A stretch of 64,000 bases of DNA, taken from positions 310,001-374,000 of the forward strand of contig NZ_AULZ01000002.1 of NCBI RefSeq assembly GCF_000422545.1, written 5' to 3'. Below are positions 28,296 through 32,943 of this stretch, piece by piece (the stretch's first letter is position 1; every line of letters starts with the position of its first letter). Origin of the DNA: Desulfocurvibacter africanus subsp. africanus DSM 2603. GTDB lineage: Bacteria; Desulfobacterota; Desulfovibrionia; Desulfovibrionales; Desulfovibrionaceae. The notes below the pieces were generated by a model. That model made no database searches, had not been told where the DNA came from, and saw only the letters and a program-made list of their open reading frames with translations. The translations under genes and the position numbers were made by a program.

Positions 28296-29237
28296 TCATT
28301 TCTTACGCAAGCGTTTCCAGGCCACGGGAGCAAGCAGAGCCGCGCCTAGGAGCAGGCCGTGGAACAGCGTGCGCGTATCACCCAGGAAATGAGCGTGGCT
28401 CAGGAGCGATTCAAGCCCGAGTACGGCCAGGATTGGGCGTACCGGATTTCCAGGCCCGCCGATAACGAGGTAGAGCAGGGTCTTGAGGGACAGCTCCAGG
28501 TCGAATTCGCCGGGTGAGATAAAGCCGCCGTAGGGCGCGTACACGGCGCCAGCCAAGGCTGACAGAGCCGCTCCAAGGCCAAAGGACAGGGAGCGTACAG
28601 CTGGGCGGCGAATGCCGCAGGCCGCCGCGGCCATGGGATCGGACTTGCAGGCCAGCAGGGCGCGCCCAAGGCGGCTGTGGCGCAGGGCCAGAAAGAGGTA
28701 CAGCCCCCCGGCGAGCAGGGCCAGGAATACGTAGTAGTGCGCGATGTCTCCGCGCAGATTCAGGCCGAGTATGGATAGCGGCGTGGTCACGAGCATGCCG
28801 TCGGGACCACCGGTGATGGAGGACAGGCTTACGGCCAGATTGGTGAAAATGAGCGAGAGGCCCAGGGTAGCCATGGCCAGAAAACCTTCGCCAAGTTTCT
28901 CCATGGGATAGCTCAAGCCAAAACCGATTCCCCAGGCCGATAGAGCCACACAGGCAAGGATGAGAGGCGAGGCCTCCGGCCAAGCCTGATGCGCCAAAAC
29001 CGAAAAATAGGCACCCAGCCCACAGAAGGCGCCTTGAGCCAGAGACGCCTGTCCGCCCAGCCCCAAGCAGAAATTAAGCGCCAGTACGTTCAGGGCCAGC
29101 AGAAGGTGCTGATTGAGACCCAGGAGTTCGTAATCGGGCACGAATGGTCCCAGGACGGCCAGGGTCAGCACGAGCAGCGCGCAATGCTTCAATCCCAGGG
29201 AAGCGGCTCGTTTAATGGCTTGGGGTTGGGCGGGCAT
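28296..29237 (-). CDS. Branched-chain amino-acid-type ABC transporter permease (LivM-like)
   Basis: 313 aa, nine or so membrane helices with the LivM-type motif region AQGAFCGLGAYFS and GGLLSIxGPDGML-like sequence (SSITGGPDGMLVTTP). It begins two bases after the LivH-like stop, so the two permeases are coupled. The ATPases (LivG/LivF) and binding protein are not within the window on this side; they may be elsewhere. Substrate cannot be given. Confidence 0.85.
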   Translation of the reverse strand: MPAQPQAIKRAASLGLKHCALLVLTLAVLGPFVPDYELLGLNQHLLLALNVLALNFCLGLGGQASLAQGAFCGLGAYFSVLAHQAWPEASPLILACVALSAWGIGFGLSYPMEKLGEGFLAMATLGLSLIFTNLAVSLSSITGGPDGMLVTTPLSILGLNLRGDIAHYYVFLALLAGGLYLFLALRHSRLGRALLACKSDPMAAAACGIRRPAVRSLSFGLGAALSALAGAVYAPYGGFISPGEFDLELSLKTLLYLVIGGPGNPVRPILAVLGLESLLSHAHFLGDTRTLFHGLLLGAALLAPVAWKRLRKK

Positions 29238-29239
29238 GA

Positions 29240-30136
29240 TCAGGCGCGTTCCTCGTGGCTGGTCATGGGCATGAGCAGCATGAGACCGATGAGCAGGCTG
29301 AAGCTCAAGGCCTCCTTGAGTTCGGCCGAGACGAGCAGCACCAGGGCGGCTTCCAGCAGGCCCAGGCCCAGACCGCCCAGGAAAACCCGCGACAGGGATG
29401 AGTAGCCGCCGATGGTCGCAGCCACGAAGCCCTTGAGGCCCAGGCCCAAGCCCATGTCATAGCGCAGCATGGTCTGGGGCCCTACGGCCATGCCGGCCAT
29501 GCAGGCCAGCACGCCGGCCAGGGCGAAGGCCAACGCGTGGCTGGCCTTGGGGTTGATGCCCTGGAGCCGCGCGGCCAAGGGATTCATGGACACGGCACGG
29601 ATGGCCCTTCCGCGGCGGGTGTGGCGTAGAAAAAAGGACAGGGCCGCGCCGCTGGCCAAGGCCAGGACCATGGCAGTGACAGTATCCCTGCCGAAATACA
29701 GCGAGCCGAGTCGTACCTCGGGCATGGGCAGGAGCTGAGCGAGCAGAAGAGGCTTCTTGCCCCAGACAAGGATTGCCAAGCCCTGCCAGACCAGGCTGGC
29801 GGCCACGGTGAGCATGAGTTGCCGCAGAGGGCTTTGTGACATGGCCAAGCCCAGGGTGGTGGCGTACAGGAAATGGCCCAACAGGAAACCCCATATGGAG
29901 GCTGCCGCCAAAGCCAGAAAAGGATTCAGCTCCATGGCCTGGGTTAGACTGAAGAGGCCCAGTCCGCCCAGGAGAAGCAACTCGCCCTGGGCGAAGTTGA
30001 TGAGTCGGCTGGAGTTGTAAATGAGTGCGAAGCCGATGGCCATGAGCCCGTAGACGGAACCCAAGGCCAAGCCGGAATTTATGATCTGGGCGAAATAGAG
30101 CAGCAGCACGGCTGGGGTATGGTTCGGGCCCGGCAT
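29240..30136 (-). CDS. Branched-chain amino-acid-type ABC transporter permease (LivH-like)
   Basis: About 298 aa from ATG 30136, the position that best fits LivH length (INSGLALGSVYGLMAIGFALIYNSS follows at residue 18). RLINFAQGELLLLGG and GGLGLGLLEAALVLL are LivH features. There is no Shine-Dalgarno sequence, and the ATG lies inside a 12-bp GC hairpin (30123-30149) which is also the likely terminator of the upstream gene. GTG 30109 is a second choice. It pairs with the LivM-like gene to form a permease dimer. Confidence 0.82.
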   Translation of the reverse strand: MPGPNHTPAVLLLYFAQIINSGLALGSVYGLMAIGFALIYNSSRLINFAQGELLLLGGLGLFSLTQAMELNPFLALAAASIWGFLLGHFLYATTLGLAMSQSPLRQLMLTVAASLVWQGLAILVWGKKPLLLAQLLPMPEVRLGSLYFGRDTVTAMVLALASGAALSFFLRHTRRGRAIRAVSMNPLAARLQGINPKASHALAFALAGVLACMAGMAVGPQTMLRYDMGLGLGLKGFVAATIGGYSSLSRVFLGGLGLGLLEAALVLLVSAELKEALSFSLLIGLMLLMPMTSHEERA

Positions 30137-30149
30137 GGCCGGGCCCGAA
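30123..30149 (-). terminator. Strong GC hairpin after the FG-GAP gene, spanning the livH-like start
   Basis: TTCGGGCCCGGC / GCCGGGCCCGAA, a perfect 12-bp stem with a 3-base loop, begins seven bases after the stop of the minus-strand FG-GAP gene. No T-run follows. The proposed ATG of the LivH-like gene is in the loop and first stem base. Confidence 0.65.
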
Positions 30150-30155
30150 ATTTCG

Positions 30156-31745
30156 CTAGTTGGCCATATCGTAAATAATGAGCAGGCTGCGCGCACTGCC
30201 CAGGCCGGGCGTGGTGGTCACCAGCACGCACAGGTTCTGCTTGCCGTTATTATGGGCATCGGCCATGCGGTAAGCCATGACCGTGCCTTTGATCCTGGGT
30301 GTCTTCCACAAGGTCGTCATGCCCACGCCATCCCAGCGCAGGGCGTGGATCTCTCCCTGGGAGAAAGCCCGGTAACGCTCGAAGAATTGTGCCGCAACCG
30401 AGATGTTCAGATTGACCAGCAGTTCATGCTCGCCATTGCCGTCGGAATCCACAGTGGCCATGGGCATGGGTATGAAATAAAACCACTGTTCTCGGTTGCG
30501 TTCCTGTGTGCGGCCCATTCCCGGCACGGCCATCTTGTCGAACTCCAGACTGACGCTGGTGCCGTTGTATTCTTCCTCGCCCTTGGATTGCAAGCTGCCC
30601 GTGGAATTGAAGGTGCGCAGATGCTCGTCATCATCAATGACCGCAATTTTATAGTCCGCTCCCATGGGCAGATAGGCCATGTTGAAGAGGTTGCCTTTCG
30701 TGGGCGTGAGCAGCTTGACGCCCACGCGCGGCTCAGGGCCTTCCAGGCTGACCTGGCGCACTCCGGCGCGGTCGAAGAGATCATTGGTACCTTGATCCTG
30801 GCAAACGAGCACCTTGCGGTACAGCGGGGGGAAACGCATGACATTCAGGTGCAGCTTGATGTTGTCCCTTACAATAACCAGTTTGCCATCTCGCCAGCCG
30901 ACTACGAAGGACAAGGGACGTTCATCGCGCCAGCCCGAGAATACGAGCTCTTCCTTGCCGTCTCCGTCGATGTCGAACAAGTTCATGGCCAGCATCAGGG
31001 AGCGCTTGGGAAGCGCAAAGCTCACCACGGGTTTCAGCTCGCCTTCCTCAATGCGCAAGAGGTGCGCCCGGCTCTGCTCGGCTAGGACCACTTCCTTGCG
31101 GCCATCGCCGTCCACGTCGCCTACATCCATGAACTCAGCGGTGAACGGATAGCTACGGCTGCGCCAGACGCCGCCTTGGTCACTGGTGGATTCGTACTGG
31201 AAGAGCGGGTTGGCTTTGTCCTGAGCGCTCTGCCCGCCAGCAATGGGGCTTGCGGCGGTTTTACCCTCGCTCTGGGCAGTTGCCTCCGCGGGGCGTTCGA
31301 AAAGAGAACTGTTGATCTCGCGGGCCATGGCTTCCAGGCCGGGAATGAGTTCGCTCAGCGGCATGCTGCCCTGCCTGGTCAGGGTGCGGCCATCCTTGCC
31401 CGCGACATTGACGTCCAGGCTGGCGTTGTCGCCCAATATGGTCGTGCTGCCCCAGACCAGATAATCGATATCCAGGGACTTCAGAGCCTGTTCGGCTTGA
31501 TCGGCCGAGGCCACGGCCAAGGGGAGGGAACGCTTGAGCTTCGCCGAATCCATGGGCTCCAATTTGCCTGCCCATGTTAGTCGGGAAACGAGCATGGACT
31601 GGATGCCGGGGCCGAGATAGGCGTACTTGTCCGGGCCGTGCACGCCGAAGATGGCCACGGCGAACTGCTGGGGCTGCTGGGCGGACAGATTTGCCGGGAA
31701 GATAAGCAAAGCCAAGGTCATAATGGCCAGAAGACGCAGATGCAT
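30156..31745 (-). CDS. Exported FG-GAP/VCBS beta-propeller protein with TolB-N-like front domain
   Basis: About 529 aa from ATG 31745, which has GGAGG upstream and starts a clean signal peptide (MALLIFPANLSAQ-like, cleaved near AQQ). Residues ~25-160 (GPGIQSMLVSRLTWAGKL, DIDYLVWGSTTILGDNASLDV) resemble the TolB/CsgG-type N-terminal fold of envelope proteins. From ~185 on, repeated Asp-rich calcium-binding motifs (DVGDVDGDGRKEVV, DIDGDGKEEL, DSDGNGEHELLV) form FG-GAP/VCBS propeller blades. Predicted periplasmic or outer-membrane protein; function unknown. Confidence 0.72.
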   Translation of the reverse strand: MHLRLLAIMTLALLIFPANLSAQQPQQFAVAIFGVHGPDKYAYLGPGIQSMLVSRLTWAGKLEPMDSAKLKRSLPLAVASADQAEQALKSLDIDYLVWGSTTILGDNASLDVNVAGKDGRTLTRQGSMPLSELIPGLEAMAREINSSLFERPAEATAQSEGKTAASPIAGGQSAQDKANPLFQYESTSDQGGVWRSRSYPFTAEFMDVGDVDGDGRKEVVLAEQSRAHLLRIEEGELKPVVSFALPKRSLMLAMNLFDIDGDGKEELVFSGWRDERPLSFVVGWRDGKLVIVRDNIKLHLNVMRFPPLYRKVLVCQDQGTNDLFDRAGVRQVSLEGPEPRVGVKLLTPTKGNLFNMAYLPMGADYKIAVIDDDEHLRTFNSTGSLQSKGEEEYNGTSVSLEFDKMAVPGMGRTQERNREQWFYFIPMPMATVDSDGNGEHELLVNLNISVAAQFFERYRAFSQGEIHALRWDGVGMTTLWKTPRIKGTVMAYRMADAHNNGKQNLCVLVTTTPGLGSARSLLIIYDMAN

Positions 31746-31813
31746 TGGTGAAATCCTCCGCTCTATGGGCACGGGCCAGAGGCCTTGCCTCGGGATCAGG
31801 TTTTCGGATTGTA

Positions 31814-32278
31814 TCAGGATTGCACGATGAACTTGGCCTGTTCGCCCCGAACCGTGCCATGTACTTGGGCTTCTGGGACCAGTCCGGTTACTACCAGGGA
31901 CAGCTCCTCGGTTAGTGCCGCCACGGCCTCGGGCTTGGCCAGTTCACCGGTCACGCGCAGGCATTCCTGCATGTCGTCGCCCCCTAGGTCGGGGCCTACC
32001 CATACGGCGGCACGCCAAGCCAGGGGTTCGCTGAGGCTCAGGTACAGAAGCATGGCTCCGTAGAGCCGATCCTCGAGGCTGGCCTGGGGCTGGCGTAGGC
32101 TGGCAAACTTTTCGGGCAGGTCGTCGTAAGGCGTGTTCATTACGCGTTCAAGGCGGTCCAGGGCGGCGGCGTGCGCAGACGCCGGTGTGCCTTCCAGCGC
32201 CGCCAGCAGAGCGGCGAAGAGGGCCGCGCGTTGGATGCGACAGGAGCGGCCTTGGGGCAGCGCCCTTTCAAGGGGCAT
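31814..32278 (-). CDS. Hypothetical protein, mostly helical
   Basis: 154 aa with an AAGGAG site upstream of the ATG. No motif is recognised. It is Ala/Leu rich with a likely helical N-terminal half, DDLPEKFASLRQPQ in the middle and a beta-like C-terminus (LSLVVTGLVPEAQVHGTV). It is 68 bases upstream of the FG-GAP gene on the same strand and may share its promoter. Confidence 0.6.
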   Translation of the reverse strand: MPLERALPQGRSCRIQRAALFAALLAALEGTPASAHAAALDRLERVMNTPYDDLPEKFASLRQPQASLEDRLYGAMLLYLSLSEPLAWRAAVWVGPDLGGDDMQECLRVTGELAKPEAVAALTEELSLVVTGLVPEAQVHGTVRGEQAKFIVQS

Positions 32279-32433
32279 GGATTCTCCTTACGGCTGAGTA
32301 AATCCAAGGACGAAAGACTTGTATCCTCTCCACGCCTTGGAAGCAACAGCCTAGGACATGCGCGGATAAGAGCGGCCACCCCGTGAAGGGGCGGCCGTCA
32401 TTTTGTCGCCCGGCACGCGAGCGGCTAAATGCC

Positions 32434-32640
32434 TCACGAGCCGCCCGCGTAGCCGATGCTGATCTTCCCGTCCTCCAAGATGATAGGCACCCGGCGCTGT
32501 CCGGCCGAAAACTTGAGCATTTCGTCGAGTTTGGCCTGATCCTGTTGCACGTCTACGTACTCGGCTTTACCGCCATAGGCCGACCTGGCCTGATCGGTGT
32601 AGGGTCAACCGGACTTGCCGTAGATACGTACTTTGGGCAT
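32434..32640 (-). CDS. Uxx-star-type selenoprotein (glutaredoxin-like, UGA-encoded Sec12)
   Basis: 68 aa read through an in-frame TGA at 32605-32607 (codon 12), so ordinary ORF finding misses it. It starts at ATG 32640 behind AGGAGG. The sequence around the TGA is KSG-U-PYTDQAR, placing selenocysteine where glutaredoxins have the CPYC/T cysteine. The C-terminal part (QRRVPIILEDGKISIGYAGG) keeps the cis-Pro and GG of the thioredoxin fold. A hairpin just after the TGA (32569-32598) has the size, distance and AGGUC-type loop of a bacterial SECIS. Known family: UXX-star selenoproteins of deltaproteobacteria and clostridia. Read as a normal gene it would stop at 11 codons. Probable thiol/selenol redox protein; partner unknown. 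Confidence 0.85.
32569..32598 (-). promoter_or_regulatory. Bacterial SECIS-like hairpin
   Basis: Starting six bases after the TGA codon: lower stem ACCG/CGGT, internal loop, upper stem AGGCC/GGCCT, apical loop AGGTC. The fdhF SECIS also has an AGGUC-like loop recognised by SelB. It is part of the coding sequence. Confidence 0.65.
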
Positions 32641-32943
32641 ACCCGTAACCTCCTAATACGTATTTAAATGCTTAAATGCCTAGCCCACCAAATTATCATA
32701 GTTGGCGATGGTGTCCACGGGCAAGCCTCACTCGTTGGGGTTCCCTGGCGGACGGATTGACATGGCGCATGGAATCAGGTCTAAGAAAATCCATTCCAGA
32801 AACGACATGAGCGCAAGCCTGAGCACGCATTATGCATATGCGTGTAGCAAGGGAGTCATTCGACAATGTCATGCCCGACGTTGGAAATGATTCTACCATG
32901 GTTTAGCGGAGAGCATATCATTGGGCATTGCACGGAGTAGAAC
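32641..32943. other. 303-base gap upstream of the selenoprotein
   Basis: No ORF or RNA gene is supported. Bases 32651-32695 are AT-rich (TATTTAAATGCTTAAATG) and probably hold the selenoprotein promoter. The right end carries the GGAG site of the TPR gene at 32944. Confidence 0.5.

Follow-up and report, generated by a model that had tools for sequence, protein, structure and literature searches.

Bacterial SECIS hairpins present their apical loop about 16–37 nt past the UGA codon, with a G among the first two loop bases. Selenocysteine (Sec) close to a C-terminus is found in mammalian thioredoxin reductase, which carries a Gly-Cys-Sec-Gly tail and in which the partner of Sec is the neighbouring Cys. 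The closest described system to the gene treated here is UXX-star selenoprotein family 1, for which NCBI holds a curated model (NF041114, cut-off 72 bits) and which appears in Table 1 of a 2026 review (PMC13188914, accessible in part) as 'Distant Grx-like protein 1', with the motif UxxT and two Sec, citing Zhang and Gladyshev 2008. The same table has the names GUXX-star and UXPK-star, and the accessible part of the review suggests that the Sec of UXX-star and other families may serve as a metal-binding ligand. No entry attributable to the NF041114 family stands in the new-family table (Table 4) of the accessible part of Zhang and Gladyshev 2008 (PMC2398784), and the literature searched, in which one paper uses the name UXX-star, contained no paper joining a glutaredoxin-like selenoprotein, a C-terminal selenocysteine and Desulfovibrio. 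A preliminary description of this DNA had derived the name UXX-star from the N-terminal U-x-x-(T/S/C) motif; in our own reading it more probably denotes a C-terminal U-x-x-stop, a sense with which GUXX-star and UXPK-star would also agree. The name reportedly goes back to a paper by Haft and Tolstoy from 2025.

The window—the whole 64,000-nucleotide stretch of DNA analysed, from Desulfocurvibacter africanus subsp. africanus DSM 2603—holds a gene whose predicted product shares with the NF041114 family the full-length profile match, the U-x-x-T motif at residues 12–15, the U-x-x-stop tail and the two Sec, without any categorical difference. Compared with most two-Sec relatives of the same order, its tail loop (YAGGS) is one residue longer and its last residue is Ile. 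The profiles of UXX-star families 2 and 3 (NF041211, NF047338) and of the HUGP/GUXX-star fusion (NF045501) match the window protein as well, at 1e-8 to 1e-12, but it stays far under their cut-offs (47.8 vs 97, 41 vs 100, and 34.7 vs 325, respectively). With the PF00462 and YruB-type glutaredoxins (TIGR02196, TIGR02181; Clostridium cGrx1 and cGrx2) it has the glutaredoxin fold in common, whereas it carries Thr in place of the second active-site Cys, lacks the last helix and has a C-terminal Sec tail instead. The likeness to mammalian thioredoxin reductase, an unrelated protein, is an analogy at most and consists in a flexible tail whose Sec is separated from the C-terminus by one or two residues, Sec69 of the window protein being without an adjacent Cys.

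The gene and its two in-frame TGA codons

The gene lies on the minus strand and comprises the following features, with coordinates given as positions in the window and the basis of each in brackets.

32425–32640, minus strand: coding sequence of the UXX-star family 1 selenoprotein, 71 aa with two predicted Sec codons (read-through product against NF041114)
32649–32654, minus strand: Shine-Dalgarno-like AGGAGG, 8 nt upstream of the ATG at 32640–32638 (direct reading)
32605–32607, minus strand: TGA codon 12, read as Sec at the glutaredoxin active-site position, U-P-Y-T (homologue alignment)
32434–32436, minus strand: TGA codon 69, read as the second Sec (homologue alignment)
32425–32433, minus strand: C-terminal Gly-Ile and true stop TAG (32427–32425), the U-x-x-stop tail (in-frame reading, homologues)
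32577–32591, minus strand: SECIS-like hairpin 1, stem AGGCC/GGCCT, loop AGGTC (fold, covariation and homologue hairpin counts)
32407–32423, minus strand: SECIS-like hairpin 2, stem CGCTCG/CGGGCG with one G-U, loop CGTGC (homologue hairpin counts and covariation)

The preliminary description had placed the start at ATG 32640 behind AGGAGG (32654–32649), had read the TGA at codon 12 (32607–32605), between KSG and PYTDQAR, as Sec, and had counted 56 sense codons from there to the TGA at 32436–32434. All of this stands, the reading of codon 12 being borne out by sequence and homologues alike. Its placing of the gene end at TGA 32434–32436, however, is wrong: this TGA is read here as a second Sec codon, the aligned codon being TGA in 103 of 103 readable copies, and the sequence beyond it continues in frame with GGC ATT TAG, so that TGA GGC ATT TAG forms the U-x-x-stop tail. 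With both TGA codons read as Sec, the product is MPKVRIYGKSGUPYTDQARSAYGGKAEYVDVQQDQAKLDEMLKFSAGQRRVPIILEDGKISIGYAGGSUGI, of 71 residues. Coding character beyond chance, likewise claimed earlier, is evident from the 68-residue form, which matches NF041114 at 98.4 bits (2e-28) and is already above the cut-off; the 69-residue form, with TGA69 counted as one residue, scores 102.6 bits, and in the profile search the 71-residue product scores 106 bits (8.8e-31) over positions 1–70 of the 70 in the profile. The family match in the organism's own genome (G000:C2:342431-342631) contains two TGA codons. The gene is real, and it encodes a small glutaredoxin-like protein that is predicted to use Sec twice. 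It had been called hidden, which is apt in that it is easily missed but overstates its novelty, given the curated NCBI model and the review entry: the family is known already, and what is new is this member and the corrected gene end.

Codons 12 and 69 and their hairpins among homologues

By profile search, the family occurs above the cut-off in 68 of 297 genomes of the order and in 100 of 395 genomes of the phylum. The profile alignment used for codon counts held 104 copies from 103 loci, drawn from the order set, five of seven further loci, and 30 phylum loci; since the latter are the best-scoring of the 100 phylum genomes above the cut-off, weak family members are under-represented among them. 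Two ordinary glutaredoxins (L098, L099) were left out of this alignment, three loci below the family cut-off (L002, L091, L092) were left out of the order count of 68 sequences, and one copy cut by a contig end (L096) was excluded at codon 69, which leaves 103 readable copies there. Among the relatives whose records have a public title are MAGs assigned to Candidatus Brocadiia, Pelotomaculum and Desulfovibrionaceae.

Every one of the 104 copies has Sec or Cys at codon 12 (Sec 58, all TGA; Cys 46, as TGC in 36 and TGT in 10), while codon 69 is TGA in all 103 readable copies and never Cys. A stop follows exactly three codons past codon 69 in 101 of the 103, the window included, the two exceptions being L084 and L129; among 266 ordinary TGA-ending ORFs of at least 200 aa, taken from both strands of the window and the loci with the gene status of each unchecked, only 12 have a stop at this distance. 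The order set taken alone, 68 sequences counting the window, divides at codon 12 into 31 with TGA and 37 with Cys, has TGA at codon 69 throughout (68/68) and shows the stop at +3 in 67/68; the pattern used for this count asked for U as well as Thr and therefore cannot alone exclude Cys forms at codon 69, a condition on U that the alignment of 104 copies dropped. Thr holds the fourth active-site place in 68 of 68 order sequences (the pattern requires it, and none failed) and is invariant in the 23 sequences of alignment A1. Two residues past Sec69, 55 of the 68 order sequences have Val, and because all four GTN codons are used for it, the sequence past TGA69 is kept as protein. On a tree of 68 columns, and poorly resolved, the state of codon 12 changes 12 times, at least four of these changes being forced by well-supported branches, and that of codon 69 not at all across copies.

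The stop that follows U-x-x is itself TGA in 46 of the 103 readable copies and TAA or TAG in the others; in those 46 copies one SECIS would serve two UGA codons nine bases apart, the first probably being Sec and the second, by homology with TAA and TAG, a stop. The rows nearest to the window on the tree come mostly from other families of the same phylum, the first being L119_1 at 69% identity, which might reflect transfer, though without a supporting branch. Two single loci deserve mention in their own right. L119 (G649:C16:100071-100271 and 100496-100696) has two complete UXX-star genes in tandem with two in-frame TGA codons each, one of the two being the row nearest to the window, and L047 (G042:C1:8635-8829) has a third in-frame TGA at the place of Gly8 (IIYUKNS), which more probably comes from damage or an error in sequencing than from a further Sec.

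The hairpin with an AGGTC loop that had been noted earlier is present (AGGCC-AGGTC-GGCCT), with an outer ACCG/CGGT stem beginning 6 nt past TGA12. Its loop begins 18 nt past TGA12, and that of the second SECIS-like hairpin (CGTGC; 32423–32407, outside the stretch covered by the preliminary description) begins 16 nt past TGA69, both in keeping with the SECIS loop rule. Hairpin 2 starts just past TAG, so this SECIS would lie in the 3' untranslated region, outside the reading frame, where no coding constraint acts on its stem; covariation is clearly visible in it. Single-sequence folding was rejected as proof of SECIS function (z of -0.63 and -0.78, not significant), and significance comes from comparison among homologues. 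Counted by a fixed rule (a stem with 5 or more pairs, of which no more than one may be G-U, a loop of 4–6 with G in its first two bases, loop start 12–26 nt past the codon), a hairpin lies past codon 69 in 94 of 103 copies against 8.4 expected from shuffles, and past codon 12 in 36 of the 58 TGA12 copies against 3.0, leaving 9 of 103 and 22 of 58, respectively, with no hairpin by this rule. Past codon 12 in the Cys12 copies, by contrast, the count is near chance (6 of 46, 4.1 expected), the two kinds of copy differing at 3e-7 by Fisher's test with relatedness ignored. A control stretch inside the gene has a hairpin in 6 of 68 sequences (4.6 expected), and the control TGA ends have one in 24 of 266.

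Covariation points the same way for both hairpins. For hairpin 1, across 41 sequences, 88.8% of cells are paired against 76.6% after shuffling and both-side changes number 26 against 6.5; for hairpin 2, across all 93 dereplicated sequences, the corresponding values are 88.3% against 70.6% and 100 against 28.1. One of five measures, a count of the pairs in which both sides have changed at all, shows no excess over shuffles, 312 and 199 of 500 being as high for hairpins 1 and 2. The first alignment of hairpin 2 (A3) held 58 of the 93 sequences, hand-chosen and without all five hairpin-less order sequences; RNAalifold gave the same six pairs on these 58, and pairing stood when all 93 were used (88.3% vs 87.1% on 58). 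MAFFT shifted hairpin 2 of the window itself out of register in both A3 and A6, and the window therefore adds no covariation support there; its loop CGTGC is common to 15 of 68 order sequences, window included. For hairpin 1 of the window, the rule-based search chose another stem of six pairs, and it is the five-pair AGGTC stem that aligns with relatives. An Rfam scan of the whole window returned no family at gathering score.

The genome has the machinery that such decoding would use, as the preliminary description had proposed to verify: contig C11 carries selA and selB, C2 carries selD, and the tRNA-Sec gene (selC), with anticodon TCA, is on C15. The selD gene (G000:C2:245108-246025, L020) has an in-frame TGA of its own, so that selenophosphate synthetase is itself probably a selenoprotein. 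Of the 297 order genomes, 247 have a selA match (E up to 1e-50), and 67 of the 68 order genomes with the family are also among the selA matches listed; the one absent from these matches is G287, which is 81% complete.

Two readings would deny the double decoding. If only codon 12 were Sec and the TGA at 32434–32436 a plain stop, this TGA would have its meaning in the standard code, and the 68-residue product would still pass NF041114 (98.4 bits vs 72); against this stand a codon 69 that is TGA in 103/103, a stop at +3 in 101/103 with a conserved residue between, the covarying SECIS-like hairpin past codon 69 and the two Sec given for the family in Table 1 of the accessible part of PMC13188914, and such a reading is very improbable. 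Two in-frame TGA codons within so short a gene might also be taken for damage in an ordinary glutaredoxin gene, whether in a pseudogene or through sequencing error, a view left with practically no probability because dozens of genomes have both TGA codons in the same places, hairpins accompany them, the remaining frame is intact, the ribosome site is good and selenocysteine genes are present; the homologues refute it. A sequencing error at 32605–32607 in particular, which had been named earlier as fatal to the proposal, is ruled out since the same TGA recurs in other genomes, and the homologues with Cys or Sec at codon 12 on which that proposal had also been made to depend make up the entire alignment. 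Judged by this comparison, identity as a UXX-star family 1 member together with the decoding of two Sec would be close to certain.

Fold, tail and proposed mechanism

The earlier assignment to the UXX-star selenoproteins, with a U-x-x-T motif and a glutaredoxin-like fold, is supported by NF041114, AlphaFold and Foldseek. AlphaFold gives a mean pLDDT of 88.7 and the elements E4-8, H13-25, E26-30, H35-44, E53-56 and E59-62, followed by the tail; its alignment contained only 6 sequences, mean pLDDT varies between 76 and 89 across the five models, and both Sec were treated as Cys. The best PDB matches by Foldseek are Clostridium cGrx2 (4tr1 and 4tr0, TM about 0.7 by query length), with cGrx1 (7c10) also found, and a sequence profile search against the PDB likewise returns glutaredoxins, the best being 2klx at 1.5e-7. 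In its 69-residue form the protein passes PF00462 (Glutaredoxin) weakly, at 30.7 bits against a cut-off of 22.9, and it is far below the cut-offs of TIGR02196 and TIGR02181. Residues are conserved across the whole fold (alignment A1). Two glutaredoxin traits are missing, in that the active site reads U12-P-Y-T15 instead of a dithiol CxxC or UxxC and the model has no C-terminal helix after the fourth strand. Two Sec, which Table 1 of the accessible part of PMC13188914 gives for the family, are predicted for the window protein too, though as a family rule this is loose, with Cys at codon 12 in 46 of 104 copies.

Relatives below the cut-off (20 regions, 15 of them with a frame readable by pattern) have a different layout: in 14 of the 15 the chain extends beyond the last strand and bears no Sec tail, and CxxC or UxxC is present in every one. 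The Sec tail therefore appears to replace the last helix of other glutaredoxins, and the resolving Cys is gone. One such relative from the phylum, L137 (G381:C10:56294-56500), combines CPYC with a C-terminal U-A-V-TGA tail, suggesting that a Sec tail may also occur with a dithiol motif.

In the mechanism proposed here, the ribosome would read both UGA codons as Sec, a step for which the comparison of homologues argues strongly, the intragenic SECIS hairpin serving codon 12 and the second hairpin, just past the stop, serving codon 69, with the SelA, SelB, SelC and SelD machinery of the genome. The product is predicted to adopt a glutaredoxin fold whose last element is the fourth strand, a tail of Gly-Gly-Ser-Sec-Gly-Ile taking the place of the last helix in the model. 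Sec12, which is Cys in many relatives, would be the active-site nucleophile; with Thr at the place of the resolving Cys of CxxC, the invariant Sec69 on its mobile tail would take over the resolving role, and a Sec12–Sec69 diselenide, or a Cys12–Sec69 selenenylsulfide in relatives, would close. Since Sec69 would form this bond with residue 12, the protein may work as a small reductase or redox carrier of the thiol/selenol type. Function is read here from sequence and model, and we give the redox mechanism an even chance; the explanation as a whole, a two-Sec UXX-star family 1 redoxin that uses its C-terminal Sec, is probable.

The gene neighbourhood offers little guidance. The seven ORFs nearby in the window were identified by Pfam as two ABC permeases, FG-GAP, TPR, GATase and pyridoxamine oxidase-like proteins, with one ORF (31814–32278, 154 aa) lacking a Pfam match, and Pfam gave no substrate hint among them. 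On the minus strand at 28296–31772, the FG-GAP repeat ORF (30156–31772) is followed by branched-chain amino-acid type permeases at 29240–30196 and 28296–29237, and the first permease and the FG-GAP frame overlap by 41 bases, provided that GTG at 30196 is the true start. The window gene is probably transcribed alone. A terminator scan near the gene found none, a GC-rich inverted repeat near 32396–32374 was seen by eye and is unscored, and a sigma-70-like promoter at 32724–32695 was set aside, one being found where 0.7 were expected. Elsewhere, neighbours vary between loci and the setting therefore differs by lineage. In the order, clustering of flanking ORFs shows a constant arrangement chiefly at loci from a single genus (g8), where the ORF beside the family gene is presumably polynucleotide phosphorylase. 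Among the 30 phylum loci, where each kind of neighbour gene was identified by a Pfam scan of one representative, eight from five families have a same-strand gene for nucleoside diphosphate kinase downstream (L102, L103, L104, L105, L109, L115, L116, L118), with an HhH-GPD base-excision repair gene upstream in seven of these eight and a protoglobin/PsiE-domain protein further on in seven; four other loci have a LOG/lysine-decarboxylase-like gene downstream. None of these conserved neighbours stands at the window, where clustering finds only ORFs antisense to the gene to be common with other loci. DNA repair and globin neighbours would fit oxidative stress, but this is weak guilt by association and does not raise the odds of the redox mechanism.

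Sec12 and Sec69 together could instead ligate a soft metal or metalloid (Hg, As, Cd or Cu), making the protein a scavenger or chaperone and no redox carrier. The suggestion of a metal-binding Sec in the accessible part of PMC13188914 favours such a role, and the absence of Cys at codon 69 from 103 copies would fit selection for selenolate affinity, whereas the fold and the U/C-P-Y/H-T motif are of the thiol-disulfide redoxin type and Pfam names no metal-resistance gene among the seven nearby window ORFs (one of them without a match) and six neighbour ORFs elsewhere; metal binding is on balance unlikely, if a serious competitor. Much less probable is a purely regulatory role, in which the double UGA would tie synthesis to selenium supply and the peptide or mRNA would sense selenium. 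Two UGA codons in a message of 71 codons should indeed make it highly sensitive to the supply of Sec-tRNA, and no same-strand gene directly abuts the window gene, yet the conserved residues across the fold and the Cys12 relatives that keep the tail point to an acting protein.

What the second selenocysteine means for the family

The invariance of Sec69 rather than Sec12 is not found stated in the accessible parts of PMC13188914 or PMC2398784. It leads to a tentative proposal, which we hold to be possible though somewhat doubtful in its entirety, that the heart of the family is the C-terminal and not the active-site Sec: helix and resolving Cys would have been lost and an obligate Sec tail gained, Sec12 and Sec69 would make up a redox or metal centre that Cys cannot replace, and in many species two UGA codons nine bases apart would stand under one SECIS, with Sec inserted at the first and translation ending at the second. 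For annotation, the corrected gene end means that a reader or gene finder accepting one recoded TGA can still truncate the gene at the second. The genes with a TGA three codons past Sec69 provide a natural test of the way in which SelB distinguishes a UGA meant for Sec from one meant as stop, the two being nine bases apart under a single hairpin, and since Sec69 is never replaced by Cys in 103 copies, the family suits asking what selenium does beyond sulfur.
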